Assembly: GCA_003211275.1 (NCBI GenBank)
Contig: QCTE01000014.1
Location: 1 to 36,274, forward strand
Source: Synechococcus sp. AG-673-A03
GTDB taxonomy: Bacteria > Cyanobacteriota > Cyanobacteriia > PCC-6307 > Cyanobiaceae
Reading direction: 5' to 3'
DNA length: 36,274 nt
The translations under genes and the position numbers were made by a program. Below, piece by piece: positions 4,543 through 27,004 of the stretch. How positions within the stretch are numbered: the stretch's first letter is position 1; every line of letters begins with the position of its first letter. Under the pieces are notes generated by a model. That model worked only from the letters and a program-made list of their open reading frames with translations, was not told the DNA's origin and made no database searches.

Positions 4543-5670
4543 ATGAGGGTTTTGATTTTCACGTCCAGCGGCGGCACGGCTCATGACGCTGCCGCCTATG
4601 CGTTGCAGGCCTGGCTCAAGCGCTGGGATCCAACCGGTGAAGTGTGGGTTGAGCATGTGCTGGAAAACGCCAGCATTTTTACCCGTGCAGGAGTTGCTCT
4701 CTACAACTGGATTCAGCGCCATGGGCCCTGGATGCATCAGATCTATTGGCGTGTTGTGGAGTGGGAAGACGTCACCAAGCCAGGAACGCTGCTCGCCGGA
4801 CGTTTTTATGTGATCCGTTTACTGCGGCGACTGCAGCCGGATCTGTTGATTTCCACGCACCCCCATATCAACCGCGGTCATTTCGATCTGGCTCGGAGGG
4901 TTCTTCCAGGTCTGCGCTGCATTAGTTGCTGTACGGAGTTGGAGGGTGGCTTCGGATTCAGTCGCAACTGGCTGACGCGACGGGCCGAAGCGTTCTGGAC
5001 CCTCTCCCAGGAAGTCAGCGATGACGTGCGCCGTCGTGGCTATCGCGCCTTGCCGACCCCGGCGCTGGGTCCTTTGTTCGATCCCGCGTTTGAGGAGGAG
5101 CTAGAGCGAGAGATTTCGGAGAGTGACGTCGAGCAGCTGCCACTCCTGGTGCTGGGAGCTGGGGCCAATGGTGCCAACAACCACATTCGTTTGCTGGAGA
5201 CCCTTCTGCCGTTGGCTGGGAAGATCAGGGTTGTCGCTCTATGCGGCCGTCGGCAGGCGGCATTTCGGCAGGTGCAGGTCTGGGCAGGGCAGCATCCTCA
5301 GCTGAACGTTGAGCCGTTGGCTTTTCAAGGCCCAGCAGCAATGGCATCGCTTTACAGAACAGCCTGGGCCATGGTGGCGCGGCCAGGGGCACGAACATCC
5401 ACTGAAGCTCTGGCCTCTGGTTGTGTGCTGATTTTCAATGGCTTTGGCACAACAATGCCTCAGGAATTGTTGGCTCGCCGCTATTTCCAGGCCCGCGACA
5501 TCGATCGCTGTATCCGTCAGCCCAAAGACCTTGTTGCCTTGTGTCGGAGCTGGCTAGAGCAGCCGCACCAGTATCAACAACTCAAGGCAAGAATGCAGCT
5601 TCACCGACTTAGCGCCGATCGAGAAGCGATTCGTCAGCTTCTCTTCCATGGTCCAAAGGCACTGGTCTGA
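4543..5670 (+). CDS. MGDG-synthase-like glycosyltransferase (GT28-type)
   Basis: A 375-residue protein with the layout of the monogalactosyldiacylglycerol synthase family. The N-terminal Rossmann half opens with FTSSGGTAHDAAAYALQAW, where the family has its glycine-rich GGGH loop. STHPHINRGHFDLARR and CISCCTELEG follow in the middle. The C-terminal half has LLVLGAGANGANNHIRLLE and a nucleotide-sugar-binding stretch MVARPGARTSTEALASGCVL. It has no signal peptide or clear transmembrane helix, which fits a monotopic membrane enzyme. It probably transfers a sugar to a lipid acceptor; donor and acceptor cannot be read from sequence. It starts the plus-strand block that runs to the P450 and lies 51 bases before the MFS gene, so an operon is likely. 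Whether it works with the polyketide synthase is inference. Confidence 0.75.
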   Translation: MRVLIFTSSGGTAHDAAAYALQAWLKRWDPTGEVWVEHVLENASIFTRAGVALYNWIQRHGPWMHQIYWRVVEWEDVTKPGTLLAGRFYVIRLLRRLQPDLLISTHPHINRGHFDLARRVLPGLRCISCCTELEGGFGFSRNWLTRRAEAFWTLSQEVSDDVRRRGYRALPTPALGPLFDPAFEEELEREISESDVEQLPLLVLGAGANGANNHIRLLETLLPLAGKIRVVALCGRRQAAFRQVQVWAGQHPQLNVEPLAFQGPAAMASLYRTAWAMVARPGARTSTEALASGCVLIFNGFGTTMPQELLARRYFQARDIDRCIRQPKDLVALCRSWLEQPHQYQQLKARMQLHRLSADREAIRQLLFHGPKALV

Positions 5671-5721: not shown

Positions 5722-7044
5722 GTGGCCAAGAGATCCAGTCGCTTGTTTCGCTATCTCTGGGGCGGCCAGCTGATTTCCAATCTGGGAACTCAGACGAGTC
5801 TTTATGGAATCGGGCTTTGGTTGTTTGCGCAGTCGGGCCAACTCCTCGACTTTGGCTTGGTGGCCATGGTGGTTCAGGCGGCGCGTTTGCTGGCGTTGCC
5901 GCTTTTTTTGCGTGTTTTCCCGGCATGGCCTCCAGGCCGTTTGATGGTGCTCTGCCATGCCACAGGAGCGGTGTGCACGGCCTTATTGGCTGTTGTGTTG
6001 CTCGGCTCTTCAGCTGATGAGCCGCCTTGGTTGCTCGGCGTTTTAGCGATTCAAGCCTTGGCCGCTGTGGCTGAAGCCATGTTGGTGGTGCGTCTCTCCA
6101 GCCTGATTCCGCTGCTGATCTCCGATCAGGAGCGTTTACAGCGAGCTAATGGATTGTTCGCCACCGTGGACGGTTTAGTGATCACTATGGCTCCCTTCCT
6201 GGGGAGCTGGCTTGTCGCCAGCCAGGGCCTGGGAGGGGTCTTGCTGCTTGATGGCATCAGTTTTTTGTTTGCCCTGCTGAGCGTTGTGGTGGCTCCCTGG
6301 TCGCAATTCAGGCAGCAGCTCGATTGCGCAGCACCGGGCGAATTGAATCAGCTCATGGCTCCTCGCACGTGGAATCGATTGCGTGCGCTCTGGCAGCGTT
6401 CATGTCCAGCGCGCTCAGCTCTTGTTTTCACTGCGCTCACAGCCTTTGTCTACGCCTCATTGGAAGTGCTGTTCCCTGCTTGGGTGGCGCTGGCCTATGC
6501 GCCTGAACGGATGGGTTGGGTTCTGATCACTGGCTGCTTGGGGTATTTGATCGGGTTTGCTGGCTGGCGATGGCGGTTGGGGCAGCACTGGCGAATTGTT
6601 TTGCCCTTGAGCCTGATGATCCAGGCGTTGATCTTGATGGGTACTGGTTTGCAAGCCTTTGCGCATCGACACTTGGTTTGGTTTGGAGCTGTTTTGGTGT
6701 TCAGTTCAGCGTTGCCCGTTGTGATGGCAGCACTGCACCAAGCCTGGGTGACCCTGGCTCCTCGAGACGCACTGCCTCGCTACTTTTCACTGCGCTATGG
6801 CTGCGAATGGGCAACCCGGTTGTTTGCCTTTTTTGCTGTACCGCTGTTGGTTGACAACGGATTGAGTCCGGCACTCAGATGGCCCTTGTGGCCATCTTGG
6901 CTAACAGAGAGTCTTGGCACCGGGGAGGGACGTGTGATGGCCATTGCCATCGGGGCTCTGGGCTGGGTGATTGCCGCTGGCCTGTCTTGGAAACAGCTTT
7001 GTTTGGGTGCAAATCCATCCAATGTTCAGCCTGAAGGTCTCTGA
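5722..7044 (+). CDS. MFS transporter (EntS-like, 12-TM exporter)
   Basis: A 440-residue hydrophobic protein. It starts at GTG 5722, where the in-frame sequence gives MAKRSSRLFRYLWGGQLISN, the usual cytoplasmic tail plus first helix of MFS exporters. I see about twelve hydrophobic segments with a central hydrophilic loop around residues 195-230. It contains LWLFAQSGQLLDFGLVAMV after helix 1 and HQAWVTLAPRDALPRYFSLR in the C-terminal half, a pattern familiar from the MFS_3/enterobactin-exporter group. The substrate is unknown. Position between a lipid-type glycosyltransferase and a polyketide synthase suggests export of the product of this cluster, which is inference. The gene runs into a 339-base gap before the polyketide synthase. 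Confidence 0.85.
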   Translation: MAKRSSRLFRYLWGGQLISNLGTQTSLYGIGLWLFAQSGQLLDFGLVAMVVQAARLLALPLFLRVFPAWPPGRLMVLCHATGAVCTALLAVVLLGSSADEPPWLLGVLAIQALAAVAEAMLVVRLSSLIPLLISDQERLQRANGLFATVDGLVITMAPFLGSWLVASQGLGGVLLLDGISFLFALLSVVVAPWSQFRQQLDCAAPGELNQLMAPRTWNRLRALWQRSCPARSALVFTALTAFVYASLEVLFPAWVALAYAPERMGWVLITGCLGYLIGFAGWRWRLGQHWRIVLPLSLMIQALILMGTGLQAFAHRHLVWFGAVLVFSSALPVVMAALHQAWVTLAPRDALPRYFSLRYGCEWATRLFAFFAVPLLVDNGLSPALRWPLWPSWLTESLGTGEGRVMAIAIGALGWVIAAGLSWKQLCLGANPSNVQPEGL

Positions 7045-7102: not shown

Positions 7103-7387
7103 GTGCACTTTCCATCAGCTGTTTTGCTTGCTGGTGACCTTCACTCGACCCAGCGCATTGACCAAAGGAGGGTCTGGCGGGAGCGTGCTGGTTTTCAATG
7201 GGGTTCGGATCGCTCGGCCCTAACAACGTTGGCTCTTCAGTCTTTGCCAGTCAGTGGGATCGTTTGCTGCATAGCCAATGTCGAAGAACTCCTGCTGCTC
7301 TCGCCTCGCTGGCTCGACCCACTGAATGGCGTTCGTGAAGGTGTTCGTGGCGTGCTCGTGCATGGAAAGGAAGTCGCCGGCGCATGA
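7103..7387 (+). CDS. Possible small ORF coupled to the PKS start (uncertain)
   Basis: The 339-base gap between the MFS stop and the PKS start holds one frame open throughout. A GTG at 7103 would give about 94 residues ending HGKEVAGA, with its stop overlapping the PKS start as ATGA. The same frame is open further back into the end of the MFS gene (from a TTG at 6971). The protein has a hydrophobic middle (LALQSLPVSGIVCCIANVEE) but no family I recognise. Open frames of this size occur by chance in GC-rich DNA. The 4-base stop/start overlap is the only positive sign. Otherwise the gap is best read as the PKS leader. Confidence 0.2.
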   Translation: MHFPSAVLLAGDLHSTQRIDQRRVWRERAGFQWGSDRSALTTLALQSLPVSGIVCCIANVEELLLLSPRWLDPLNGVREGVRGVLVHGKEVAGA

Positions 7388-10300
7388 ATCAGCAGATCCG
7401 TCCGGTTTCCTCAGTTCAAGAGCCCATCGCGGTTTTGGGGATGGGCTGCCGCCTCCCTGGCGGGGTCGAGAGTCCTGAACAGTTCTGGCAACTGCTGGCT
7501 GAGGGACGGGAGGCGATCGCTGAGATCCCCTCAGATCGCTGGGATCTTCAGCGTCACCATGACCCTGATCCGCGTACGCCGTTGCACCAGCATGTGCGCC
7601 GAGCGGGCTTGGTGGATGGGATCGACCAGTTCGATCCAGCCTTGTTTGGCATTAGCGGCAGGGAAGCCCAATGCATGGACCCTCAGCAGCGCTTGTTGCT
7701 TGAGGTGTGTTGGAGGGCCATGGAGGCGGGTGCTCAGCCCCTGGAGCAGTTGCGTGGACGCTCAGTGGGAGTGTTCATGGGCATTTCCAGCGCGGATTAC
7801 CGAGCTCTGCTTTGGGCCTCTGAAAATCGATACCTCACGCCTGACAACGAACCGTTCATTCTCACCGGCAACACCGGTTCCATTGCTGCCAACAGGATTT
7901 CTTACGCCTTTGATTTCAAAGGGCCCAGCTTCACAGTTGATACGGCTTGTTCTTCGTCGTTAGTGGCTTTGCATCTGGCTTGCGAGAGCTTGAGGCGTGG
8001 TGAATCGGAACTGGCCTTGGCTGGCGGTGCTCAGGCGTTGATTCACCCCGCCATTCAGATGAGTTTCTGCAAAGCCGGTTTGCTGTCGCCCGATGGGCGT
8101 TGCCGCAGCTTTGATGCAGCCGCTGATGGTTATGTGCGTTCTGAAGGGGCGGGGGCTGTGCTGCTCAAGCCGTTGGCGGCGGCGTTGCGTGATGGTGATC
8201 CGATTGAAGCTGTGATTCGTGGCACGGCGGTGAATTCCGATGGACGTAGTAAAGGCCTGGCCGCACCCAGCAAAAAAGCTCAGATCGCTTGTGTTCAGGC
8301 CGCCTATCAGGGCTCTGGCTTGTCCCCGGCTTCAGCGCAATTGGTTGAAGCTCACGGCACAGGGACTCGCCAGGGGGATCCCATTGAACTCAGGGCCCTT
8401 GGAGCGGTGCTGGGGCAGGAGCGGCCAAGCACTGACCCCTGTTTGCTTGGCTCGGTGAAAACCAATGTGGGTCATTCGGAAACGGCCGCAGGCATTACGG
8501 GTTTTATCAAAGCCGTGTTGTGCCTCAGGCAGCGCATGGTGCCTGCCAGCCTCCATTACTCGCGGCCTAATCCCAGTGTTGATCTTCCTGCTCTAGGCCT
8601 GAAGGTTTCGACACAGCTGCAACCTTTCCCAAAACCTGACCAGGAGCTGGTGGTCAGTGTCAGCTCGTTTGGATTCGGTGGCACCAATTCTCATGCGGTT
8701 TTGAGCAGTGCTCCTGTTCAGCCCTCACAGCCCTCGATTTCGTCGTTGTCAGCGCCTTCATTACACCTGCTGTGGTTGAGCGCGCGCAACGAGGAAGCTC
8801 TTGATCTGCTTCGTGCACAAACAGCGGATTGGCTTGAGGCTCATGCAGCGGTCAGCTTGCAGGACCTCTGCGCCAGCATTCAGCTGCGACGCTCCCAATG
8901 CCCCCATGCGCTGGGGTTGATTGCGAGCAGTGCTGAGCACCTGGTACGCCAGTTGCGCGGGCAAGACCCTGCGGCGTGGACCGGTGTCGTTGCCTCGCGT
9001 GGAGCTGGGGGTTTGCCAGAGACCTTGAAAGATCTGAAACAGCAGACTCTTGCTGAGGGTGCCGTTGGTTTTGAGCAGCTCCAGAAGCTTGTTCAGGCTT
9101 TGGCTCAAGGAGCCCCAATGGATTGGTTGGCATGGCATCAAGGTGCCTCCTGGCATCAGCTGCGGCCGCCAGGTCATCCCTTTCTGCGTTCACGTTTTTG
9201 GTGGACGCCACGGGATCAGGGTCGAGACCAAGTCAAAGCCAGCCTTTGGTTGGATCACGTCGGCTTTGGCAGCAGTGTCACCGCTGAGCAGTCAGGTCTG
9301 GCTTTGCAGAAGTTGGACCTTCCAGGAGCGGCAGAGCACTGGCAGACCGAGTTGGATCCGGCTGATGCTCGCGACCTTCCGGACCATGCGTTGTGCGGCT
9401 ATCCCCTGTTTGCGGCAGCGGGTTATCTCGCCCTTTTCCTGGATTGGTTGAACGATCAACAACAGCCACTTCAATGTGCCGATCTCAATCTCGATCGTCC
9501 GCTGTGGCTCAACGCCGGTTCGGTACAGCTGCAGGCTGTACGCGACGGTGATGCGTTCAGCTTCCATGCCCGCTCCCCGCAGGCCGAAGACGGCGGCAGC
9601 TGGCAGCTCCATGGCCAGCTGCGGCTAACAACAGCTGCTGAACAACCCATTCAGCCCCTGCAGGCTTTGGCGTTTGACGATGGCGCCGAACTTGATATCA
9701 CCAATTTTTATCGCTCTTTAAAGAGTCTTGGGCTGGATTACGGCAGCTGCTACCGGGCGCTGGTTGCTTTGCAAGCGAACGTCAAGGGCGCCGAAGCACT
9801 GCTGCAGCGTCCGGAGGCGGCCCCTGATCGCAGCCTGATCGATGGTTGTTTTCAACTGGTGGCTGCGGTTCTTGCCCAAACGCACGCCGATGGCCAATTG
9901 CTACTCCCTGTAGGAGTGGAGCAGATGCAGATGTTGCGATGGCCTTTGCCTGACCAGCTGCGTTGTCGCTTACAAGTTCGTCCTGAAGATCACAGCCAGG
10001 GAGCTGAGGGCAGTCGCGCGCATGTGACCGCTGACTTGGATGTTCTCGATCTCTCTGGGGACTTCCTGGGAGCGATCCGTGGCTTGCAGTTCCGGCGCCT
10101 GACGCGAACTCTGCTGGAGTTGATGCTGCCTGAGGACTCTTCCAGACCTGCCGCGCAACTGCTGGAGGAGATTTGGCAACCCCTTGCGGCACATGCACTC
10201 AGCGACTGGAGCCCAGGAGCGGCTGAGCCCATCACCCTGATCGCGATGGGGCCATTGCCAGATGCCGTGAGGGAATGGAGCGCGCAGCAGGCAATCACGC

Positions 10301-13300
10301 CTTTTGAACTGGATTCACAGGCGGATCCACAATCGGTGACCGCAGCGCTGGTGCAACAACTCCAGGCGCTTCCCCTCAGTCAGCCGCGCCAGGTGCTGTT
10401 GTGGATGCCGGCTTTGGCCTCACCTGCTGCAAATGCGGTCCAGGCGGCAGTGCGTTCCCTGGCCCAGGACTGTTCGGCATGGCGTTGCAGCACGATCACA
10501 GCTTCGCCTTCTGCTCTGGCCGGTGGGCTGTCATCCGCTGAGTGGCAACAGCTTTTGGCTACCACCGCCGGTGATGCGGAGGTCCGCTGGTGTGGTTCTG
10601 ATCGCATTGAAACTCGCAGTCTCCAGCCCATTGATCAAGAGCGGTTTCGCATGCTCTCCGATGGAACTGGTCGACTTGAGGGGCTGCTGAAGTCGCCCTT
10701 GCCGCTAGCGCGTCTTCTGCCAGGAGAGCTGGAGTTGGCGGTGGAGGCCACCGGGCTTAACTTTCGCGATGTTCTCAACGCTTTGGGGCTTCTGCAAAGT
10801 CACAATCAATCCCTCGGGCTGAGAGCCAATGCTCAATTGCCTTTCGGTGGCGAAGCCGTCGGGCGGGTGGTCGCTGTCGGTCCAGGGGTGGATTCCTCGT
10901 TGGTGGGCCAGCGGATGCTTGCCGCGCTCACCCTGGGAAGCCTGGCAAGCCATGTGACTTGCAGGGCAATGCTCTGCGTGCCCTGGCCAGAAGAGTTGGA
11001 TCCCGTGCTGGGGGCGAGCCTTTCAACGGCCTATCTCACGGCAGAGCATGGGCTCGAGCAGCTGGCCCGGCTTCAAGCTGGGGAAATGGTTTTGATTCAT
11101 GCGGCTGCCGGTGGCGTTGGGCAGGCAGCTGTGCAGGTGGCCTTGCGCTGCGGTGCTCGCATCCTGGCCACCGCCAGTGAGGGCAAACAGGCTGGATTGC
11201 TGGAACAAGGAGTGGAAGCGGTCTTCGATTCCCGCTCCACGGATTTCGCTGATCAGGTGCTTAAGCACACCGAAGGCCGCGGCGTTGATGTGGTTCTGAA
11301 CAGCCTGAAAGGTGAGTGGGTGGATGCCAGTTTCCACGCGCTTGCGTCTGGCGGGCGCTTTGTGGAGCTTGGCAAGCTGGAGATCTGGGGCGACCAGCAG
11401 GTGCGCGAACGACGGCCTGACGTGAGCTATTTCCGCTTTGACCTGCTGGAAGTGGCAGCTCGCGACCCACAACCCTTGAGGCAGCGATTGCTGCGATTGG
11501 TGGCGGCTGCCCAGGACCAAACCCTGCCCGCGTTGCCGGTCTCAGCCTTTGCTGTGGAGCAGTGCAAGGACGCCTTCCGGCGAATGGCGCAGGGCAAGCA
11601 TGTGGGCAAGTTGGTGATCACCCTGCCCAGTCATGCCCCTCCTTGTGCCATTCGCACTGATGGCACCTATCTGGTGGTGGGTGCTTTTGGTGGGATCGGG
11701 CAACGTTTGCAGTCCTGGTTGCTGGATCGGGGAGCCCGCTCGTTGTTGTTGGTTGGTCGACGTCTGCCCGCACCAGGCTCGGAAACGGCTGAGTGGTTAG
11801 ACCGCCTCCGTTCTCAGGGTGTGCAGGTTGAGCCGCTCTGCTGGGACGACCTCCCTCAAGCACTCGCTGAATTGCCTCAGGGCCTGCCGCTGCGTGGCGT
11901 CTTTCATGCTGCTGGAGCGCTGAAAGATCAGCGCGTTGGGGAGATTGAACTCACCAGTCTCAATGCGGTGTTTGAGGCCAAGTTTGGCCCCCAGCAGCAA
12001 CTGGACAAGCTTCAAAAGCTGCAGCCAGCAGCTTTTCAACACCTCGACTTCCAGGTGATGTTCTCGTCCATCGCCGCGGCACTGGGTTCACCTGGCCAGT
12101 TGGTCTATGGCGCTGCCAATGGGGCTGTTGAATCCAGCTGCCGCAATGCGGACTCTGAGGGGCCAGTTCAGCTGGCGATTCAGTGGGGGCCTTGGGCTGG
12201 TTCGGGCATGGCTGCAGGGTTGGAGCGGCGCTTTGAATCCGTCGGTCTTCATCTTCTGGCGGAAGACGAAGCGATGTCGTCTCTCGAGTTATTGCTGCAG
12301 CGAGGCCGTAGCGGAGTGGTGACGGTGATGGCAGCCGATTGGCCGCGGCTCGTCAGTCAGGCCTTGCCCCGCCAGGCGGCTTGGTTCCGGTCCTTGATTC
12401 ATGAACTTCCGGGCCGATCAGAAGCCCAGGTTCGCGCTCAGTTGGAGGCCTTAGCAGCGGATCAGCGCAGGCCATGGCTGCTGTCGACGCTTCAACAACT
12501 TCTGGTGGGAGTGATGGAAGAACCGGAAGCGCAGCTCGATGCGCAAGCCAGCCTGTTTGATTTAGGGCTCGATTCGTTGATGGCGGCAGAGTTTGCTGCC
12601 GAAGTGCAGCAAGCATTGGGCTGGCGCCTTGATCTGGCTGCGTTCAGCGACGCCCCCTGCCTGGATGATCTGGCCAGCATGGCTCTCGAGCGCTTGTTGC
12701 CAGACGGCTCGGCAGCGGCACCGGAGGAATTGGATCTTGATCAGGAGGCTCAGCTGGACGAGAGTTGGTCATTGCCGGAGGGCCCATCCGTTGAGGCGCC
12801 TGGAGAACGGGTTCTGCTGACTGGCGCAAGCGGTTTCCTGGGCGCCTATCTCCTGGCGGGGCAACTCCGCCAATGGCCGGATTTGCGGGTTCGCTGTTTG
12901 GTGCGGGCAGCCTCTGAGCAGCAAGGCATGGAGCGATTGGAGCAGAACCTGCGCCGCTATGGGCTTTGGCAGCAGACCTGGCAAGACCGATTGGAGGTGG
13001 TTCTTGGTGATCTGGCCCAGCCTCGGTTGGGCTTGGATGCCGATCAGTTTGCTGCGCTTGGCAGGGGCATTGGCGGCATCCTCCACAACGGTGCCCAGTT
13101 GAGTCAGATGGCGAGCTATGCCCAATTGGCGGCCACCAATGTGGGCGGAACGCGCGAGCTTCTGCGTCTAGCAGCTGCGGACACACCAAAACGCTTCGCC
13201 TTGATCTCCAGCGTGGCGGTGTTTGAGGCCGATGCCTGCAGGGATCAGTTGATTCAGGAAGAGGATCCGCTTGAGGATTGGCAAGGTATCCAGCTCGGCT

Positions 13301-13911
13301 ATTCCCAAACCAAATGGGTCACGGACCGGATGGTGCGCTGCGCTTCAGCAGCCGGACTGCCTGTTTCGATCTACCGGCCCCCCTTGATTGCAGGTCCATC
13401 CTGTGGAAGTGCCTGGCATCAGGGAGACTTGCTGCAGCGCCTGCTTCAGGGCTGTTTGGCGTTAGGGGCTTCGCCTGATTTGGCCTGGGAATTGGATGTG
13501 GTGCCTGTTGATTACGTTGCTGATGCGGTGTCGGCTCTGGCCTGGAGTGATGAGGCCAAAGGGCGTGCTTTCCATCTTCAGCATCCCGAACCACTCCTAC
13601 TCACAACTCTATTGAGGCAACTCACCGATGGCATGGACGGTTGGCGCGTGTTGCCGATGCAGGAATGGATCGCTGAGATTGAGCGGAGTTCCGGCAATCC
13701 TCTCCAGCCTTTGCTGCCCTTCCTTCAGCAGAGCTGGGGCGACGACGGGCTGACCTATCCCGAGCGCAATTGCGTGGGTCAGCGGGCTCGCCCGAGTTGT
13801 GTCTTCACGGCTCAGGTGTTGGAGGCCCATGGCGTGCGCTGCCCCCCCTGGCATCAGTTGATTGGGCCCTGGGCTTCAGTGCTGCTTCAGCAGGAACAAA
13901 TGGCTCGCTGA
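7384..13911 (+). CDS. AT-less iterative-type polyketide synthase, KS-DH-ER-KR-ACP-thioester reductase
   Basis: A 2175-residue type I polyketide synthase. Domains in order: KS (about 13-440) with Cys189 in VDTACSSSLVAL, His324 in VEAHGTGT and His364 in NVGHSE; KS-AT linker (about 461-535); a roughly 40-residue gap where an AT of about 300 residues is expected; post-AT linker (578-607, PMDWLAWHQG...HPFLRSRFWW). Next come DH with His668 and Asp820, a structural region (about 930-1090), ER (about 1095-1415) with HAAAGGVGQAA, and KR (about 1425-1610) with GAFGGIG, Ser1561/1562 and Tyr1575. ACP follows with Ser1731 in FDLGLDSLM, then a terminal SDR-type thioester reductase (about 1805-2175) with TGASGFLG and YSQTKW (1973-1978). 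It should build a fully reduced chain and release it as aldehyde or alcohol. Malonyl loading must come in trans. Its stop overlaps the GT2 start (TGATG). Iterative action is inferred from the single complete reductive module. Confidence 0.92.
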   Translation: MNQQIRPVSSVQEPIAVLGMGCRLPGGVESPEQFWQLLAEGREAIAEIPSDRWDLQRHHDPDPRTPLHQHVRRAGLVDGIDQFDPALFGISGREAQCMDPQQRLLLEVCWRAMEAGAQPLEQLRGRSVGVFMGISSADYRALLWASENRYLTPDNEPFILTGNTGSIAANRISYAFDFKGPSFTVDTACSSSLVALHLACESLRRGESELALAGGAQALIHPAIQMSFCKAGLLSPDGRCRSFDAAADGYVRSEGAGAVLLKPLAAALRDGDPIEAVIRGTAVNSDGRSKGLAAPSKKAQIACVQAAYQGSGLSPASAQLVEAHGTGTRQGDPIELRALGAVLGQERPSTDPCLLGSVKTNVGHSETAAGITGFIKAVLCLRQRMVPASLHYSRPNPSVDLPALGLKVSTQLQPFPKPDQELVVSVSSFGFGGTNSHAVLSSAPVQPSQPSISSLSAPSLHLLWLSARNEEALDLLRAQTADWLEAHAAVSLQDLCASIQLRRSQCPHALGLIASSAEHLVRQLRGQDPAAWTGVVASRGAGGLPETLKDLKQQTLAEGAVGFEQLQKLVQALAQGAPMDWLAWHQGASWHQLRPPGHPFLRSRFWWTPRDQGRDQVKASLWLDHVGFGSSVTAEQSGLALQKLDLPGAAEHWQTELDPADARDLPDHALCGYPLFAAAGYLALFLDWLNDQQQPLQCADLNLDRPLWLNAGSVQLQAVRDGDAFSFHARSPQAEDGGSWQLHGQLRLTTAAEQPIQPLQALAFDDGAELDITNFYRSLKSLGLDYGSCYRALVALQANVKGAEALLQRPEAAPDRSLIDGCFQLVAAVLAQTHADGQLLLPVGVEQMQMLRWPLPDQLRCRLQVRPEDHSQGAEGSRAHVTADLDVLDLSGDFLGAIRGLQFRRLTRTLLELMLPEDSSRPAAQLLEEIWQPLAAHALSDWSPGAAEPITLIAMGPLPDAVREWSAQQAITPFELDSQADPQSVTAALVQQLQALPLSQPRQVLLWMPALASPAANAVQAAVRSLAQDCSAWRCSTITASPSALAGGLSSAEWQQLLATTAGDAEVRWCGSDRIETRSLQPIDQERFRMLSDGTGRLEGLLKSPLPLARLLPGELELAVEATGLNFRDVLNALGLLQSHNQSLGLRANAQLPFGGEAVGRVVAVGPGVDSSLVGQRMLAALTLGSLASHVTCRAMLCVPWPEELDPVLGASLSTAYLTAEHGLEQLARLQAGEMVLIHAAAGGVGQAAVQVALRCGARILATASEGKQAGLLEQGVEAVFDSRSTDFADQVLKHTEGRGVDVVLNSLKGEWVDASFHALASGGRFVELGKLEIWGDQQVRERRPDVSYFRFDLLEVAARDPQPLRQRLLRLVAAAQDQTLPALPVSAFAVEQCKDAFRRMAQGKHVGKLVITLPSHAPPCAIRTDGTYLVVGAFGGIGQRLQSWLLDRGARSLLLVGRRLPAPGSETAEWLDRLRSQGVQVEPLCWDDLPQALAELPQGLPLRGVFHAAGALKDQRVGEIELTSLNAVFEAKFGPQQQLDKLQKLQPAAFQHLDFQVMFSSIAAALGSPGQLVYGAANGAVESSCRNADSEGPVQLAIQWGPWAGSGMAAGLERRFESVGLHLLAEDEAMSSLELLLQRGRSGVVTVMAADWPRLVSQALPRQAAWFRSLIHELPGRSEAQVRAQLEALAADQRRPWLLSTLQQLLVGVMEEPEAQLDAQASLFDLGLDSLMAAEFAAEVQQALGWRLDLAAFSDAPCLDDLASMALERLLPDGSAAAPEELDLDQEAQLDESWSLPEGPSVEAPGERVLLTGASGFLGAYLLAGQLRQWPDLRVRCLVRAASEQQGMERLEQNLRRYGLWQQTWQDRLEVVLGDLAQPRLGLDADQFAALGRGIGGILHNGAQLSQMASYAQLAATNVGGTRELLRLAAADTPKRFALISSVAVFEADACRDQLIQEEDPLEDWQGIQLGYSQTKWVTDRMVRCASAAGLPVSIYRPPLIAGPSCGSAWHQGDLLQRLLQGCLALGASPDLAWELDVVPVDYVADAVSALAWSDEAKGRAFHLQHPEPLLLTTLLRQLTDGMDGWRVLPMQEWIAEIERSSGNPLQPLLPFLQQSWGDDGLTYPERNCVGQRARPSCVFTAQVLEAHGVRCPPWHQLIGPWASVLLQQEQMAR

Positions 13912-15089
13912 TGCCAGCCTCGTTGTTGCTGTTGGCCCTATGGCTTGGGCAAGCCCTGCTTGTCTTTGCCTTCAGCAAACGTTTGCGGGTTTTGCGTAGC
14001 GCGTCCGATTCAGCGGCTTGTGCTGACGCTGCTTGTCCTGATTTGGAAGTGGTGTTGTGTTTGCGGGGTGCCGATGCCTGCCTGCCGCGGTTGCTGGAGG
14101 CATTGGCTGCTCAGACCTATCCAGCCCCCTGGCGGTTGCAGGTGGTGGTGGACAGCGATCAGGATCCTGCCTGGGCCATGCTGAAGCCCTGGCGAGCTCG
14201 TGAAGATGCGGCCTGGGCTGAGTTGCGCTGCTGCACCCTGCTTGACCGCCCAGTGCAGGGTTCGTTGAAATGTGCGGCACTACGCCAGGCGTTTTCTCAG
14301 CTGCATCCCAGCAGCGCTTTGGTTGTGCTTTTGGATGCCGATATTCGTTTCCCAGCCAAGGGCCTGGAACGTTGTGCGCGCTCTTGCCTGCAACCAGGGG
14401 TGGGTGCCATCTCTGGAAATCGTTGGTTTCGTCCCCCTTCACCCAGCTTTGGAGCTCTTCATTGGAGCAGCTGGACGCGAGCCGTCTGGAATGCCGGTGC
14501 CGTGGTGCTGATGACCTTATTGCAGATTCCCTGGGGCGGCACCCTTTGCGTTCGCCGTGAGCTGGTGGATGCCGGTGATTGGAGCGAGCTGTTAAGGCGT
14601 GGTTTGTGTGAAGACACGGGTTTGCTCGGGCCATTGCGGCAGTTGGGATTGAGCTACCGCTTCGAACCAAGCCTGCTGATGGTCGATCCCGATCCAGCAC
14701 AGCCCTTGCTGCCGTTGGGCCGCTGGATCACCCGTCAACTGCTCACAGCTCGCCTGCACCACCCCGCTTGGCCACTGGTGGCCTTTCATGGTCTTGGCAG
14801 CGTGCTGCTGTTGGCGTTTGCTCTGTTTCAAGGTGCCTGGTTGGCCGTGCTGATCTATGAGCTGGGATGTGTGTGCCTGCTCTGCTGGATCCAACATCTG
14901 CTGCGCCCTCAGGACCCTGGTCGGGTTTGGGGCTGGCTTGTGGGACTACTCCCCGGGCAATTGCTGGATGGACTGGCCACCTTGTCGGCCTTGTGCACGC
15001 GCCATGTTTCATGGCGTGGTGTCGACTACGCCGTGCAGTTCAGGCCCTCGCGCGTGGTGCTCCGCAGGGATCGGGGTGTTGAGGCTTAG
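13911..15089 (+). CDS. Membrane glycosyltransferase, GT2 family (ceramide-glucosyltransferase-like)
   Basis: A 392-residue protein starting at ATG 13911, inside the PKS stop (TGATG). A longer in-frame reading from 13770 would overlap the PKS and lacks support. An N-terminal hydrophobic helix (about 4-22) is followed by a GT-A domain. The acceptor segment QGSLKCAALRQA is at 116-127, the metal-binding DAD at 142-144, PWGGTLCVRREL at 207-218 and CEDTG with the probable catalytic acid at 233-237. RWITRQLLTARL (271-282) sits where processive and ceramide-type enzymes carry a (Q/R)xxRW motif, but it does not match exactly. Two or three C-terminal helices follow (about 290-360). The layout resembles GT21/GT2 enzymes that glycosylate membrane lipids. 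A lipid alcohol from the PKS is the obvious candidate acceptor, by inference from coupling. Confidence 0.8.
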   Translation: MPASLLLLALWLGQALLVFAFSKRLRVLRSASDSAACADAACPDLEVVLCLRGADACLPRLLEALAAQTYPAPWRLQVVVDSDQDPAWAMLKPWRAREDAAWAELRCCTLLDRPVQGSLKCAALRQAFSQLHPSSALVVLLDADIRFPAKGLERCARSCLQPGVGAISGNRWFRPPSPSFGALHWSSWTRAVWNAGAVVLMTLLQIPWGGTLCVRRELVDAGDWSELLRRGLCEDTGLLGPLRQLGLSYRFEPSLLMVDPDPAQPLLPLGRWITRQLLTARLHHPAWPLVAFHGLGSVLLLAFALFQGAWLAVLIYELGCVCLLCWIQHLLRPQDPGRVWGWLVGLLPGQLLDGLATLSALCTRHVSWRGVDYAVQFRPSRVVLRRDRGVEA

Positions 15090-15643
15090 TTGTTGGCCTG
15101 CATCAGCCCACTGAGGCGTTGCATCGATTCACGCAAGCTGTTGCGAGTGAGTTCAGCGAAGACCGGTTGCAGCATGCCTGGCAGCTCTGGAACCAGAGTG
15201 ATGGTGTGGCGCAGATGGGTTCCCGATGGTGTTGGCGTGATCGTCCAGCTGCCATTGAGCTTGCGAATGCGATCGCCTTGAAGCATCTGAAAATTGATGG
15301 CCGTTTTTGGGCTTTCTTTCACGGCCAGGGTTGCGCTGATCGTCAAGCCAAAGGTGTAAGGCGCTTGGTAGGTCTGGCGCATGCGAATCAGATTGCCTTG
15401 ACGACTCAGTAGCTGCACCTTGCTGATGTCAGGCATCGCCTCTCCTGTGGCGACATAGTTCGTGAGCACTGTCCAGGCAAGCGCTTGTGACACGGGCAGT
15501 GTCATCTCAGCCGTACGGGTGTTGCCTGACTGCTGGATTTGAATTGTCGTTGCTTGCGCAGCGTCCGCTGGCGTTGCTGGTAGATGTGTCAGAACGATCC
15601 CCAGCCCGAGCAATGTTGATCGCAGGTGAAGCTGGATAGACAT
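15086..15643 (-). CDS. Secreted SRPBCC-fold protein embedded antisense in the PKS block
   Basis: A 185-residue protein starting at the ATG complementary to 15641-15643. An upstream in-frame start would add 19 residues but would place the signal peptide internally. The N-terminus (MSIQLHLRSTLLGLGIVL...ATPADAAQ) is a Sec-type signal peptide with probable cleavage after ADAA. The mature part fits the START/Bet v1-like SRPBCC ligand-binding fold: LPVSQALAWTVLTNYVA early, MPDISKVQLLSRQGN, and a long C-terminal helix ELTRNSLRESMQRLSGLMQ. Such proteins bind hydrophobic ligands or act as cyclases and lipid carriers. A periplasmic lipid-binding role for the cluster product is inference. Its stop overlaps the GT2 stop (15086-15089) and its start overlaps the hydrolase start within a CATG palindrome. 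Confidence 0.8.
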   Translation of the reverse strand: MSIQLHLRSTLLGLGIVLTHLPATPADAAQATTIQIQQSGNTRTAEMTLPVSQALAWTVLTNYVATGEAMPDISKVQLLSRQGNLIRMRQTYQAPYTFGLTISATLAVKESPKTAINFQMLQGDRIRKLNGSWTITPTPSGTHLRHTITLVPELPGMLQPVFAELTRNSLRESMQRLSGLMQANN

Positions 15644-16754
15644 GGCAGTGAATCGAGAAGACGAGTTGAAGAAGACCGGATCATCGTGCAGGCGACGCAC
15701 CTACTTCCTCAGCGGGTTTGACCCCCGTGGCGTAGCGCATTATCAGCGTTTATTTGCGCGGCTGCTGAAACAGCGTGGTTGGCGTTTGGGGTCTCGCCAG
15801 GAGGGTGAAAGGATCACCCGCTGGCCCTTGTTTGATCCTGGGGTGGATCAACACTATGAGCTTGCTTTTTTGCATTGGGATGACATTGCTCGTGCGAACT
15901 GGCCAAAGCATCCCTGGCCGTTGCTGGCGCAGTTGCTTGGATTTGCGCGGGCCTATCTGCTGCAGGGGGGAGTCGTGCGTACGGCGCGGTTGTGCCCTGG
16001 TGTGGCGCTTTGTGGGCTTTACCCCGTCATGGTTTTGATTTTGGTCACGCTTGCAGCGATTGCGGCTGGAGTCTTGGCTGCCTTGCTCTGGCTTCCGTTG
16101 TTGCCGTTGGTGGTGGCTGTTGTGCTCTGGCAGGGCTGGCGGCTGGCGGATCGTTTGGGTGTGGTGTGGCTCTGCAGGTCAATCTTGTTCACCCATCGCC
16201 TTGGCAGCCTGAGAGACACGATGCTGCGAGAGCGGGTGCAGGAGTTGGTGGGGGCATTGCTGGCTTTGGAAGACAACAATCCCGCTGATGAAATCCTGTT
16301 AGTGGGTCACAGTTCCGGATCGTTTGTGCTGGGGATGGTGGCGGCTGAATTGCGACGCCACCCCAATTCGATGGCAATTACGTCCAGGCTGCGTTTGCTG
16401 AGCCTGGGGCAGAACCTGGCCAATCTGGGCTTGTACCCAGGTGCGGAGTCGTTTCGGGATGATCTCAAGACGTTGGCGATCGAACCCTGTTTGCCCTGGC
16501 TGGATGTCACCTCCTTCGATGACTTGTTGTGTTTTGCCGGCGTGAATCCTTATCAAGCCTGCGGTTTGCCTGTGCCAAGGAGAGACGGCAGTGACTACCC
16601 ACGGATGCAGCTGTTGAATCTGCGTCAAGCCAACGGTTTAGAGCGCAAGCGGCAATGGTTGGCTCAGCTGTTTGACCTCCATTTCGACTATTTGACCAAT
16701 CCCGCTGCTGGTTTGGATCTTTGCGGGCTGATGACTGGAGAAAGCACGATCTGA
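15642..16754 (+). CDS. Membrane-anchored alpha/beta-hydrolase-like protein
   Basis: A 370-residue protein of uncertain function. The N-terminus contains YFLSGFDPRGVAHYQRLF (21-38), an early strand-loop typical of an uncharacterised hydrolase-like family. A long hydrophobic stretch (about 118-164) could form two membrane helices. After it comes the nucleophile elbow VGHSSGSF, with GxSxG at 222-226 and Ser224 as candidate nucleophile. HFDYLTNP (346-353) could supply the catalytic histidine, and an acidic partner is not obvious. ATG at 15642 is preceded by AGGTGA about 12 bases upstream. The stop overlaps the P450 start (TGATG). It may act as a thioesterase, lipase or acyltransferase on the cluster lipid; the reaction cannot be told from sequence. 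Confidence 0.65.
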   Translation: MAVNREDELKKTGSSCRRRTYFLSGFDPRGVAHYQRLFARLLKQRGWRLGSRQEGERITRWPLFDPGVDQHYELAFLHWDDIARANWPKHPWPLLAQLLGFARAYLLQGGVVRTARLCPGVALCGLYPVMVLILVTLAAIAAGVLAALLWLPLLPLVVAVVLWQGWRLADRLGVVWLCRSILFTHRLGSLRDTMLRERVQELVGALLALEDNNPADEILLVGHSSGSFVLGMVAAELRRHPNSMAITSRLRLLSLGQNLANLGLYPGAESFRDDLKTLAIEPCLPWLDVTSFDDLLCFAGVNPYQACGLPVPRRDGSDYPRMQLLNLRQANGLERKRQWLAQLFDLHFDYLTNPAAGLDLCGLMTGESTI

Positions 16755-18196
16755 TGGCCATCACACCCCCCTGGCCAAAGCCCTTGCCCTACACCGCCAA
16801 TGTGCTGCGTCGCCTGAAGCGGGGATGGAGCAGTTGGTTTGGTTTGCTCAATGAATGGGATTTCCGCATCGCTTTAGGTGAGCTGAATCTGCTGGGCCTG
16901 AGAGTGTTTTTGGTGAACGATCGAACACTGTTGAGGCGAGTGCTCGTACAGGAGGTGGAGGTCTTCCCAAAGCACCCCTACACGCTTTGGATTCTTGAAC
17001 CTCTGATTGGCCGAGCGATTTTTTCTGTCAATGGAGACGAATGGGCACGCCAGAGGCGCTTGGTTGATCAGGCGTTTCAGGTGGCCCAGTTGGAGCAGGT
17101 GTTTCCTGCGATGGAGGCTGCAAAAGACTCCATGCTGGAGCGGCTTGTGCAGCAGCTCTCAGAGCAAGGCGATTGCAGCCAGCAAGGAGCTGAAATCGAT
17201 ATCGAAGCTGCGATGACCTGGGTCACCGCTGATGTGATCGTGCGCACGATCCTCAGCAGACCGGTGCAGGAGGGAGAGGCGCGAGAGGTGTTCGAGGCCT
17301 TTGGGCGTTATCAACGCAAGGCCGCCCGGGCACTGATTTTGCGCTTTGCGCGTTTGCCACGGCGTTGGGTGCAGCGCTCGCTGACGCGCGATGCGCTGGT
17401 GATTCGTCAGTGGATCCAAGGCGTGATCGAGGAACGGCTTGCGCAGCCTGAGGCTGGTGTGAAGGATCTGCTGGGTGCCCTGCTTGCCGCCGTGGATCCA
17501 CAAACTGGTAGTTCCTTCACTGCCGAGGAATTGGTGGATCAGATTTGCTTTCTGTTCCTGGCCGGCCATGAAACCTCAGCCAGTGCCTTGAGCAGTGCCT
17601 GTTGGCTGTTGGCCCTGGATCAAGAGGCTCAGGACCAGTTCCATGCCGAGGTGGCATCTCTCCCTGAGGTGGTGACGCACCAAAGCTTGAGGCAGCTGCG
17701 TTACGGGGCTGCGGTGTTTCAGGAAACCTTGCGCCTCTATCCGCCGGTGAGTTTCTTCATTCGTGAACGCGTTCACGAAGACACTGACCTGTCGGTTCCA
17801 TCGATGGAATGCCCGCAGCAAGCGCCAGCGATCAGTCGATGTCCGGTGGGATCGTTGTTGACCTTTTCGCCTTGGGTGATTCATCGCCATGACGACTACT
17901 GGCCGGAACCTCATCAATTCCGCCCGGAGCGATTCCTTGACAGCAGCGCGACGGATCAGGAGATCCTTTGCCGCAAAGAAGCTTGGCTCCCCTACGGGTT
18001 AGGTCCGCGCAAATGCCCCGGAGCTGCGTTTGCCCAGCAGGAAGCGTTGCTTGTCCTGGCTGCACTCATCAAGCACTATCAACTCTTCCCTGGGAGCAAT
18101 AACCCAGGCCCTGAATGGACCGGGCGTCTCACCTTGCGCAGTGCATCGGGTGTTGTGTTGAGGCTTGTCCCGAGATCATCAGTTAAAAACCGATGA
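16754..18196 (+). CDS. Cytochrome P450
   Basis: A 480-residue heme monooxygenase starting at ATG 16754, which overlaps the hydrolase stop (TGATG). An in-frame reading from 16721 would add 11 residues inside the hydrolase. The I-helix AGHETS is at 270-275, the K-helix ExxR is ETLR (324-327), PERF is at 391-394, and the heme-binding loop is YGLGPRKCPG with the ligand Cys421. Tyrosine replaces the usual phenylalanine at the first loop position. It has no membrane anchor of the eukaryotic type. Position as last gene of the plus-strand block suggests hydroxylation of the alkyl product. The redox partner is not in the window. The last 14 bases overlap the 3' end of the opposing minus-strand gene, leaving no room for a terminator. 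Confidence 0.92.
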   Translation: MAITPPWPKPLPYTANVLRRLKRGWSSWFGLLNEWDFRIALGELNLLGLRVFLVNDRTLLRRVLVQEVEVFPKHPYTLWILEPLIGRAIFSVNGDEWARQRRLVDQAFQVAQLEQVFPAMEAAKDSMLERLVQQLSEQGDCSQQGAEIDIEAAMTWVTADVIVRTILSRPVQEGEAREVFEAFGRYQRKAARALILRFARLPRRWVQRSLTRDALVIRQWIQGVIEERLAQPEAGVKDLLGALLAAVDPQTGSSFTAEELVDQICFLFLAGHETSASALSSACWLLALDQEAQDQFHAEVASLPEVVTHQSLRQLRYGAAVFQETLRLYPPVSFFIRERVHEDTDLSVPSMECPQQAPAISRCPVGSLLTFSPWVIHRHDDYWPEPHQFRPERFLDSSATDQEILCRKEAWLPYGLGPRKCPGAAFAQQEALLVLAALIKHYQLFPGSNNPGPEWTGRLTLRSASGVVLRLVPRSSVKNR

Positions 18197-20150
18197 GTAA
18201 TCGTCCGCCCCAGCGCACCTGTTCGGCGTTGATTAACTGACCAATATCCAGAAGTGAGGCGGCCGTGCTTCCGTAGGCCTCGAGCGCAATGCTGTCCGTG
18301 GCATGCCAACGAAGCCCCAGGGTGCCGTTGCTTTGGGACAGTTGATTGATCACGACATTGCCTTCGGGTACGAGCTCCCAGCCTGGGAAGAGTTGCAGAT
18401 TGGAACTGATCCCTAAGCCCCAGAGGTTGCCTGCTCCGCTCAAGGCCACTTTGGGGTTGATGTTGATCGCTAATCCCTCGGTGGCTTCCCAGGTCGCCAT
18501 GGTTTCTGCGAACACATAGCCCTGACCGGTGCTGCTGTTTGCATCGCTTCTACCCAGGGTGATCCGTCCACCTCCCCAGAACGGAGCGCCTCGGAGAGGA
18601 CTGAAGGCCACAGCTTTTCCGCCGATACGCCAGTTCCATGCGCCATCGTTGGCGTAGAGACGTGCTTGGGGCGTGGTTTGGGGCACGTTGTTGTAGAGCC
18701 CACCACTGAAGAGAGTCAGCTGAAAGATGTTGGAGAGCGAATAGCCAACGAAACCGTTGACGTTCCCGCCGCTATCGGCATTGATCCAAGCCTCTGTGTT
18801 GGTGTCTGGTGGCACCAGAGCGGTGTTGACCGTGAGCCCCCCTTTGGCGAGTGATCGCTGCCTTGGCGTGAGCGGCGCTTGTGGTGTGTCTGCAGTGCCT
18901 GGAGTGAACACGAAGCTGGCGGAATAGCCAAGCCGGTTATCGGAGGGCAAAGCGAGCAATGCCGTTGCCGGTGTAGCCCCGAAGCCATTGGTGATCAAGC
19001 CTTTGAGCCCTATTCGCGGATTGAGATCCCAGTTGATGCCTGCGGACAGAATGGGAACGCGAGAAAACACCAGATCTGCATCGAAGCTGTTGGTGCCGCT
19101 GCCGATCGGTTGGGCGATGCTGGCGGTAAAGCCCAGTTCCGGGAACGGTTGGAACAGAACTCCGCCGCTGACGTAGGGGTTGGTTCCATAGAACGTGCCA
19201 GCTCCACCCTGGCCAGAGCCTTGCGTTGAAGGCAGGAAGCTCACACCCGGAGCAAAGCTGAATTGCCACTGTTCGCTTGCTTGCCAGGTCGCCGGAATGC
19301 TGAGGGATCCAACGAAGTTACGAGTGAAGACTCGGCTGCCGGAGTCATTGAAAATGTTGGGGCTGGCGTTATCTCCTGAGTCGGAGAACGAATCGTCACC
19401 GCCACTGCCCACTTCCCATGCTTCCAGTGAGCCATTGATGGCTAGCTTCCAGTTGTTTTGGTTGAGAATTTGCCACTGGGCCGCGGCACCGTAGCTCTGC
19501 CAAAAATTGCCCGGTTGTACTGCGAAACCGGTGAGTGGAGCGTTGAGCGGATCATCAGCCTGACTAATAAAAAATGACAGCATCAGGCTGTCGTTGAAAC
19601 CAACGTCGAGGTTGACCGAATAATTCTGATTGCCTGTACCGCTTGCACTCTCAAAGGGCGAAATGGTCCCAAACGAGATGCGCCACTGATCAGCAGGCAA
19701 GTTTTCTGCTGTGGGCACGGAAGGTGAAAGCCGCAGCAGTGGTAAGTAATCGCTGGGTTTCAGAGGGATGGTGCTGAGCAGCGCTTCAGCTTCTTCCACG
19801 CTGGCGGGTGGATTCACCTCAGTTGTCGACGCAGTCTCCGGCGTTGGGAAATTGGTCACATCTTCAGCGTCAAGCAATTCCCAAGCCAAAACCCTCGAGG
19901 GTTGATCTTGTTCTTCTGATCTAGGCACAACCTGCCAAGAAACAGCCGTCATTGATGGATCTCGCTCGTCTGCGTTAATGACAGGCTCCCAGACCACGGG
20001 TGGGGGGGCGATGACAGGCGAGTCGATGGCCTCCCACACGATCTGCGCCTGTGTTGCTTGAGGCAGCCCGCCTCCCACTCCGATTGTCAAAAAGGAGCTG
20101 GAAATCAGAAGCCTGCGCACTCTGCTTTGGAAAGGTGGCGTGTACTTCAC
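18183..20150 (-). CDS. Probable outer-membrane beta-barrel protein of the polysaccharide export operon
   Basis: A 655-residue protein starting at GTG 20150, overlapping the Wzc-like stop by 4 bases. A signal peptide (about 1-36, ending QATQAQ) is followed by a proline-rich low-complexity region. That region holds four short tryptophan repeats: IVWEAI, VVWEPV, SWQVV and LAWELL (residues 37-92). From about 155 onward the sequence alternates short amphipathic strands with Gly/Asn/Ser-rich turns and ends in RWGGRLLIGF. A C-terminal phenylalanine after alternating residues is the usual outer-membrane barrel signal. I do not recognise a named family. Its place after wza- and wzc-like genes suggests a role in secretion or surface anchoring of a polysaccharide; a porin-like or assembly function is equally possible. 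Confidence 0.65.
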   Translation of the reverse strand: MKYTPPFQSRVRRLLISSSFLTIGVGGGLPQATQAQIVWEAIDSPVIAPPPVVWEPVINADERDPSMTAVSWQVVPRSEEQDQPSRVLAWELLDAEDVTNFPTPETASTTEVNPPASVEEAEALLSTIPLKPSDYLPLLRLSPSVPTAENLPADQWRISFGTISPFESASGTGNQNYSVNLDVGFNDSLMLSFFISQADDPLNAPLTGFAVQPGNFWQSYGAAAQWQILNQNNWKLAINGSLEAWEVGSGGDDSFSDSGDNASPNIFNDSGSRVFTRNFVGSLSIPATWQASEQWQFSFAPGVSFLPSTQGSGQGGAGTFYGTNPYVSGGVLFQPFPELGFTASIAQPIGSGTNSFDADLVFSRVPILSAGINWDLNPRIGLKGLITNGFGATPATALLALPSDNRLGYSASFVFTPGTADTPQAPLTPRQRSLAKGGLTVNTALVPPDTNTEAWINADSGGNVNGFVGYSLSNIFQLTLFSGGLYNNVPQTTPQARLYANDGAWNWRIGGKAVAFSPLRGAPFWGGGRITLGRSDANSSTGQGYVFAETMATWEATEGLAININPKVALSGAGNLWGLGISSNLQLFPGWELVPEGNVVINQLSQSNGTLGLRWHATDSIALEAYGSTAASLLDIGQLINAEQVRWGGRLLIGF

Positions 20151-23076: not shown

Positions 23077-23213
23077 TGCTGATTAGATCAGATTCACGGG
23101 AACTTATGGCATTCCGCTCCTAGATGAAAGCGGTTTGTAGCCAGGATTGGAACTGGGTTGAGTGAAGGTGGTTAGGCGGCCCGGCAAAATGGTTTCACCG
23201 AAGAAACCAAGGT

Positions 23214-24503: not shown

Positions 24504-24676
24504 TACTATTTCACTGATTACTCTGTACGGGTTTAAGTGAAAGTATAGGGTTTCGAAATATTAGGCTTTTCAAATAGCTGAATCAAAGGCCATTGGCGCT
24601 GGAACACGCTCTGTGGAATGTTGAGAAGTTAAGGCAACGGCTGCTTGCTGGGATCTCGTGACATCTTGCGAAAAAA

Positions 24677-24706
24677 TTCCCTCCTTTAGTTGACTCAAGG
24701 AGGGAA
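24677..24706 (-). terminator. Intrinsic terminator reading leftward
   Basis: A perfect 10-bp stem (TTCCCTCCTT pairing with AAGGAGGGAA) encloses a 10-base loop. On the minus strand the stem is followed directly by six T residues (the A run at 24671-24676). It lies about 90 bases past the minus-strand nucleotidyltransferase remnant, so it probably ended that operon. On the plus strand no T run follows, so it is a poor hisS terminator. Confidence 0.7.
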
Positions 24707-24794
24707 GTATTAAATATTGATGATTCAAGACTACGATCTGACTATCTTCGCTTACGAACAAGGATGCTATCGACGCCAAGTTTGGGAGGATTGA

Positions 24795-25129
24795 TCAAAG
24801 GGTTTGCTCAGCTTTTCTTGCGAATGGAGACCTTTCATAAAGCGATTGTCTGGCTCGCTCGATATCGACCAAAAGTCCGTTTTGGGTACTCAGGTCATCT
24901 AGCTGGAGATCGATAGGCCATGGCAAGAGCCAGTCTTCGAGGGTTGTTCCGAGTTCGAATAACTCCCCGAGATCCATTGTGGAGCCTTGAGGTATAGATC
25001 AATGTCGGATCCAGCTTGCTGTCGCCCTGGCGCCCGCGAGCCAAAAAGCGCTTTCTTTTGCACATGGGATTGGGTGCGTATCATTTCCAGTATTAATTTG
25101 TTGTCGGCTTGGGGAATTCCAGGGATCAT
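24795..25129 (-). pseudogene. Frameshifted MNT-family nucleotidyltransferase (MntA/HI0073-like)
   Basis: The first part (25129 down to about 24978) encodes an intact minimal-nucleotidyltransferase core, KKALFGSRAPGRQQAGSDID, with the GSx(10)DxD pattern followed by LYLKAP. The frame then runs into nonfamily sequence. The continuation appears one base away as MDLGELFELGTTLEDWLLPW and IDLQLDDL, ending at 24795. The split falls near 24975-24982 at CCACAATGG, so a single-base indel explains it. Joined, the protein would be about 110 residues, normal for MNT proteins paired with HEPN or HI0074-type partners. The start ATG overlaps the upstream partner's stop by 4 bases. It is a broken toxin-antitoxin or substrate-modifying pair, unless the shift is a sequencing error. 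Confidence 0.75.
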
Positions 25130-26983: not shown

Positions 26984-27004
26984 CGCTAAATAATTTACGC
27001 TTGT

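Follow-up and report, generated by a model that had tools for sequence, protein, structure and literature searches.

The window, that is, the whole stretch of 36,274 nucleotides analyzed here, encodes a single-module type I polyketide synthase (PKS) that has no acyltransferase (AT) domain. From its sequence and those of its relatives, it would be a fully reducing enzyme of cis-AT descent in which the AT was lost in place, whose acyl carrier protein (ACP) would be loaded by FabD, and which probably works iteratively to provide a glycolipid precursor, a fatty aldehyde or alcohol; the probability of this reading as a whole is estimated at about 0.7. The synthase, its domains, and its neighbors are located as follows.

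4543..5670, + strand: GT28 glycosyltransferase, MGDG or diglucosyl-diacylglycerol synthase-like; beside the PKS in 10/10 AT-less and 3/6 AT-bearing loci
5722..7044, + strand: MFS transporter; nearby in 9/10 AT-less loci
7384..13911, + strand: AT-less single-module PKS, KS-DH-ER-KR-ACP-TR, 2175 aa (open reading frame and Pfam)
7420..8703, + strand: ketosynthase (KS), residues 13-440; catalytic Cys and both His present (Pfam, residue count)
8758..8967, + strand: KS-AT linker subdomain, residues 459-528, corresponding to CurL 490-559 (Pfam, CurL alignment)
8968..9048, + strand: 27 residues (529-555) at the position of the AT of CurL, about 320 residues long (CurL alignment)
9049..9204, + strand: post-AT linker, residues 556-607; the match to CurL 884-935 is weak alone, and the whole linker also aligns with AT-less KS structures
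9220..10173, + strand: dehydratase (DH) region, residues 613-930; His and Asp kept, motif Pro replaced by Ala (Pfam, residue count)
10720..11619, + strand: enoylreductase (ER), residues 1113-1412 (Pfam, residue count)
11662..12198, + strand: ketoreductase (KR), residues 1427-1605 (Pfam, residue count)
12487..12678, + strand: ACP, residues 1702-1765, LGLDSL intact (Pfam, residue count)
12817..13875, + strand: thioester reductase (TR; reductive release), to residue 2164 (Pfam; NCBIfam TIGR01746 above cut-off)
13908..15089, + strand: GT2/GT21-like glycosyltransferase, weakly HpnI-like (below cut-off), start codon uncertain
15086..15700, - strand: polyketide-cyclase or lipid-transport (START-like) protein
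15642..16754, + strand: conserved 370-aa protein without clear family
16721..18196, + strand: cytochrome P450
18183..20150, - strand: conserved 655-aa protein without clear family, in 10/10 AT-less loci

The synthase occupies a single open frame in which a Pfam search finds, in this order, KS (residues 13-392), a KS C-terminal extension, a CurL-like linker (461-524), DH, ER, KR (1427-1605), ACP (1702-1765), and TR (1812-2049). No PF00698 (AT) domain is found in the 2175 residues by this search, in agreement with a preliminary description of this DNA according to which the AT is excised and no AT GHSxG motif occurs anywhere in the protein, and the missing AT is confirmed. The KS-AT protein CurL matches the linker region (residues 441-623) in two pieces that flank its own AT, with an E-value of 1.1e-7 for the whole match. 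The first piece aligns residues 459-528 with CurL 490-559 (i-Evalue 0.007) and the second, weak alone, aligns residues 556-606 with CurL 884-935 (i-Evalue 0.78). The KS-AT and post-AT linkers are recognizable on both sides of the gap, as had been proposed, and the positions first given for them were right to a few bases (LLWLSARN starts at residue 462, nucleotide 8767, and HPFLRSRFWW ends at nucleotide 9204). That the gap is short also holds, but its size was given as about 40 residues in place of about 300, and against CurL it is about 27 in place of about 320.

The same linker region is matched over most of its length by AT-less KS structures (4qyr, 4wky, 5erf, and others), whose post-KS linker subdomain is present by sequence in the window PKS. 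An AlphaFold model of residues 1-640, of middling quality, has a mean pLDDT of 63, with block means of 70-93 for 461-590, and it fits KS-AT and AT-less KS structures alike, being not specific for either. When residues 401-640 are aligned pairwise with each of 57 relatives, AT-bearing or with a dead AT, no consistent excision point emerges, the inserts having 21-217 residues and the commonest break points being scattered over 524-575. Among 41 AT-less rows, the segment 500-612 measures 108-114 residues in 38. The other three (P0009, P0014, and L019 from G026) have a linker shorter still by about 32 residues, with 80-81 residues compared with about 113.

Matches to P0001 at E ≤ 1e-120 are present in 49 of 400 family genomes sampled evenly from a larger group, and an AT-less synthase is present in at least 18 of the 400 (G000, G016, G020, G023, G024, G026, G067, G079, G084, G092, G104, G125, G138, G151, G159, G172, G218, and G301). 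Eighteen is a lower bound because several of the other 31 matching genomes hold PKS fragments only. Five AT-less genomes consist of a single contig (G016, G020, G023, G084, and G104), and in G138 the synthase is cut by the contig end. Each AT-less genome has one PKS match at this threshold, in two pieces in G026, and the lone module lies outside any multimodular assembly line, as initially stated. Six of 31 genomes in the window's own genus, that of the window among them, give strong matches, a patchy distribution. Among the 120 of 7982 database proteins listed, P0002-P0023 and P0068 are AT-less, at 44-87% identity, and two of the AT-less rows are named Prochlorococcus sp. MIT 1341 and MIT 1307; in P0024-P0081, except P0068 and P0073, PF00698 is present in addition to these domains. 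A plasmid search gave 1725 matching records, none of them covering 80% of the query. One further relative of the window's genus, G013, holds only a KS piece of 143 residues (L030, G013:C1:2314994-2315422), 80% identical and within an open frame of 158 codons, a possible remnant of a lost synthase.

The window genome is an assembly of 1.87 Mb in 93 contigs, 70% complete, and from this state an assembly deletion or a pseudogene could be suspected behind the AT-less form. Nonetheless, the same gap recurs in the 18 genomes, five of them single-contig, so it is not a deletion in one genome only, and the frame is open, with a dN/dS of 0.14-0.17 for the whole protein and its catalytic residues kept. 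On these grounds, artefact and pseudogene are ruled out for all practical purposes, in line with the earlier view of a working synthase rather than a decaying gene. The dN/dS values, computed on four pairs of G000, G016, G024, and G023, are 0.07-0.11 for the KS, which is among the most constrained domains, and 0.08-0.15 for the ACP, with 0.12-0.32 for residues 546-612 and 0.14-0.34 for the linker subdomain 441-545, among the least constrained parts. All 41 AT-less rows, of which 29 are distinct at 98.5% identity, keep the ER motif and the catalytic residues of KS, KR, and DH (His, Asp, and Gln), and 40 keep the ACP Ser and the TR Tyr and Lys, the remaining row being cut by a contig end. The claim that all other catalytic residues are intact needs one correction, since the Pro of the DH motif HxxxGxxxxP is Ala in the window protein. 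This Pro is kept in 29 of the 41 rows, and the 12 with Ala constitute the window's clade.

For the phylogeny, 131 of 137 sequences (under 2800 residues) were kept, and 118 of these 131 (identity under 98.5%) served as tree rows; another KS tree was built on 181 KS domains, and a quick KS tree under a mixture model on 70 rows chosen from 198. In the 70-row tree, the AT-less rows form one group (SH-aLRT 96) within the picocyanobacterial family (100). The closest outgroups are the KSs L022 and L021 of other cyanobacteria, both with a cis-AT; the outgroup labels rest on one AT query at 1e-8, with which divergent ATs can be missed. Other KS trees also recover the AT-less rows as one group, with supports of 0.998 and 0.986. 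In a tree of KS plus post-AT regions rooted at the midpoint, the AT-less row of G138 falls across the root; unrooted, the AT-less rows make up one side of a branch (0.966, AT-bearing side). The branch joining the AT-bearing rows has an SH-aLRT of 36 in the 70-row tree and a support of 0.965-0.966 in FastTree runs. Both a sister and a nested placement of the AT-less group are compatible with these trees; a loss on the stem would be the parsimonious solution with two outgroups.

Given the placement of the KS in a cyanobacterial lineage of cis-AT enzymes, loss of the AT in place is probable. The reverse order, in which the AT-less form is ancestral and an AT was inserted in the sister group, would agree with AT-less rows that are sister to, and not clearly nested in, the AT-bearing ones. 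However, the cis-AT of the nearest outgroup KSs, the dead ATs that show decay among relatives, and a two-piece CurL match that fits removal make it distinctly unlikely. As to classical trans-AT systems, the window PKS has a module without AT as they do, and the post-KS linker of the KSs from the isomigrastatin, oxazolomycin, and bacillaene trans-AT synthases aligns over most of its length. It differs from them in having another KS lineage, no dedicated discrete AT found, and one module. Its KS does not group with trans-AT KSs: a topology that unites the AT-less rows with 12 outgroup KSs treated as trans-AT (8 in which no AT was detected and 4 cut short, with 8 of the 70 rows dropped) is rejected in the quick tree, with an lnL lower by 121 and a p-AU of 6e-6. 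This topology test and the PF00698 counts given below rule out classical trans-AT membership. The enzyme belongs instead to a picocyanobacterial KS-(AT)-DH-ER-KR-ACP-TR family, some members of which are named Cyanobium, sharing with its AT-bearing synthases the KS clade, all domains but the AT and, in three loci, the gene neighborhood.

The locus comprises the MFS and GT28 genes, the PKS, and then the genes for the GT2 (GT21-like) enzyme, the START-like protein, the 370-aa protein, the P450, and the 655-aa protein. The comparison of neighbors covered 10 of the 17 other AT-less genomes, together with six AT-bearing loci. GT28, GT2, the START-like protein, and the 655-aa protein are found in all 10 AT-less loci, the MFS transporter in nine (on the opposite side in G020), and the P450 and the 370-aa protein in eight. 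Among the six AT-bearing loci, three (G175, G071, and G168, the last with a dead AT) have the full set of MFS, GT28, GT2, START-like, 370-aa, and P450 genes; no 655-aa protein was seen in them, although two of these stretches end at the P450. By this common neighborhood, the synthases with and without an AT are orthologs that occupy one locus. The neighbor set is not shown by the three remaining loci, G114 and G313 (a two-gene type) and G127 (a short contig). In G114 (L091:3402-8372) and G313 (L095:2331-7283), the gene immediately upstream of one for a KS-AT-DH-ER-KR-ACP protein encodes a protein of 1650 residues with the order KS-(no AT)-KR-ACP-TR. The KS of this 1650-aa protein, a second AT-less KS, falls outside the family clade and is possibly served by the AT of the neighbor.

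A search for PF00698 over the assembly of the window genome gives one match, a 298-aa protein on another contig that passes the FabD equivalog model TIGR00128, so that no AT gene was found in the window, as first described. Exactly one PF00698 protein is present in 17 of the 18 AT-less genomes, with no dedicated discrete AT found beside it; in G138, an assembly of 380 contigs, PF00698 was not found. In the 10 other AT-less genomes compared, the sole PF00698 protein is 64-93% identical to the FabD of the window genome, making it FabD by similarity in 11 of 11 genomes, the window's included. The single-contig genomes G016, G020, G023, G084, and G104 have one such protein each and no other AT, and FabD is therefore the only loader of known kind left. 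This is in keeping with the earlier suggestion that FabD or an unlinked AT may load the synthase. All 15 AT-bearing comparator genomes give at least two PF00698 matches. In a second set of 16 genomes, 12 give at least two, a FabD-sized one is the only match in G147, G201, and G272 (fragmentary PKSs), and the one in the PKS is the only match in G268. Moreover, the ACP is more acidic in AT-less synthases (-15.4 per 100 residues) than in those with an active AT (-12.2), with -13.3 for dead-AT synthases, and KS, DH, ER, KR, and TR show no acidic shift in the AT-less synthases. The shift fits what would be expected for recognition by FabD, one clade counting as one event.

A dedicated discrete AT of a family other than PF00698 could also load the ACP, the search having been confined to PF00698 and two conserved proteins of the cluster being without clear family. 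However, PKS-loading ATs are, to our knowledge, members of PF00698, and the search detected a protein in 17 of the 18 AT-less genomes and matched in 10 of 14 control genomes, which makes such a loader very unlikely. Alternatively, the synthase might add no malonyl units and only process and reductively release acyl chains taken from type II fatty acid synthesis, with the AT unneeded. The absence of the AT in one clade, its death in several lineages, and the presence of a TR would suit this possibility, and chain extension by this module is itself deduced. Nonetheless, the Cys and the two His of the KS do not vary among the 41 AT-less rows, the KS is under the strong constraint given above, and KS, DH, ER, and KR would hardly be kept for release alone; we therefore consider it unlikely, although less so than a loader from another family. 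Loading by FabD thus stays preferred, and it has a precedent in the AT-less PipC, whose ACP is malonylated by FabD in vitro according to the accessible text of PMC12828459, and in BrnF, for which that of PMC13096860 indicates FabD as the loader.

Among the AT-bearing relatives, the state of the AT was judged from two residues, the catalytic Ser and the final His of HxFH, the latter taken as the catalytic His. This rule replaces an earlier one that called 14 rows decayed; under it P0046 and P0048 count as active, and P0104 is left out. P0048 keeps both residues but has GDSAG for GHSxG, and its AT may be impaired. By this rule, 54 of 67 AT-bearing rows, five of the 67 being from TR-less relatives, keep Ser and His, and the AT is dead, with one or both residues gone, in the other 13. 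These are 11 clusters (P0036, P0040, P0042, P0044, P0050, P0051, P0061, P0063, P0069, P0070, and P0073) and two draft genomes, G168 and G120, near-copies of P0040 and P0044. The sequences come mostly from metagenome assemblies; the clusters hold 36 members for P0044, 18 for P0050, 12 for P0040 (six contigs), 12 for P0042, and 5 for P0070, and the six others are single-member. In 12 of the 13 dead ATs, the Ser is Gly, and the His-bearing stretch is missing in 10. None of the 14 rows that the earlier rule called decayed, the 11 dead clusters among them, has lost its KS, DH, ER, KR, or ACP residues. On a tree of 72 chosen rows with near-copies (two genome rows identical and three nearly identical to P rows), the AT changes between active and dead at least eight times, eight changes being forced by the starred branches and either direction counted; these would be eight separate deaths only if no dead AT was ever restored. 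Also, the median AT divergence relative to the KS is larger for active-dead than for active-active pairs (3.93 versus 2.68 and 2.73 versus 2.05 in two clades, the pairs not being independent). In G168 and G120, the sole other PF00698 protein has 309 residues and is FabD-sized. Some inactive ATs are known from colibactin synthases.

A passage within one orthologous picocyanobacterial locus, from a cis-AT enzyme to an iterative AT-less one dependent on FabD, is somewhat favored by these data. It would lead from a working AT through the loss of Ser and His and the deletion of the His part to a synthase with the AT gone, the catalytic residues decaying first, then the part that holds the His, and finally the whole domain. 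As part of the same passage, purifying selection would maintain the AT-less form in Prochlorococcus as well as in the genus of the window. We propose that the AT is dispensable, and hence decaying, because FabD can load the ACP. In the resulting enzyme, FabD would malonylate the ACP from malonyl-CoA and an acyl chain, probably supplied by acyl-AcpP, would prime the KS. The module would then condense and fully reduce the chain via KR-DH-ER, probably in several rounds, the TR would release a fatty aldehyde or alcohol, and the P450 and the two glycosyltransferases would convert it to a glycolipid. The interpretation of the preliminary description is supported; beyond its sight were the loss common to the whole clade, the AT-bearing orthologs at the same locus, and the dead ATs in other lineages.

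The heterocyst glycolipid synthase HglE is a single-module PKS/FAS with reductive release or a lipid-like product and has a cis-AT. SwfA of sponge symbionts is, in the accessible text of PMC3908369, alike a single-module PKS/FAS with reductive release or a lipid-like product and, unlike the window PKS, has a cis-AT. FabD-loaded modules without AT are already known: PipC (pseudotetraivprolide, Pseudomonas) and BrnF (barnesin, Sulfurospirillum) are likewise without an integrated AT or, in the portions available of PMC12828459 and PMC13096860, a reported dedicated trans-AT, FabD being the loader. As described there, both belong to NRPS-PKS hybrids with a TE, whereas the window PKS is a stand-alone, fully reducing enzyme with reductive release and with AT-bearing and dead-AT orthologs at its locus. 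What seems new is a stand-alone reducing AT-less module of cis-AT descent with orthologs at its locus in successive states of AT loss. For the trans-AT PKSs of algae, too, the available part of Shelest et al. 2015 (PMC4661987) proposes an origin in which a cis-AT was displaced, but these PKSs are mostly large and multimodular, compared with one module here. That same part regards an iterative single-module trans-AT PKS as a necessary intermediate with little convincing evidence.

The origin of AT-less PKSs is debated, and here one locus presents intact, dead, truncated, and absent ATs. With FabD as the only candidate loader in five single-contig genomes, the transition could be tested with small proteins (FabD and ACP). 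If true, the window PKS would represent the iterative trans-AT intermediate of Shelest et al., with a lipid pathway tied directly to the FabD of fatty acid synthesis. No title on this synthase appears among the literature matches listed, drawn largely from outside the subscription literature, and the word "polyketide" is absent from the main text of a paper on Prochlorococcus LLVII isolates (PMC11559063), as far as this text is available. The locus points to a lipid or glycolipid pathway, absent from those literature matches, in picocyanobacteria including Prochlorococcus LLVII isolates.

Beyond the PKS cluster, positions 20147-31215 of the window carry genes for polysaccharide export and synthesis (Wzz, Poly_export, an epimerase, a UDP-sugar dehydrogenase, and an ABC transporter), with a histidyl-tRNA-synthetase-like gene among them at 23214-24503.
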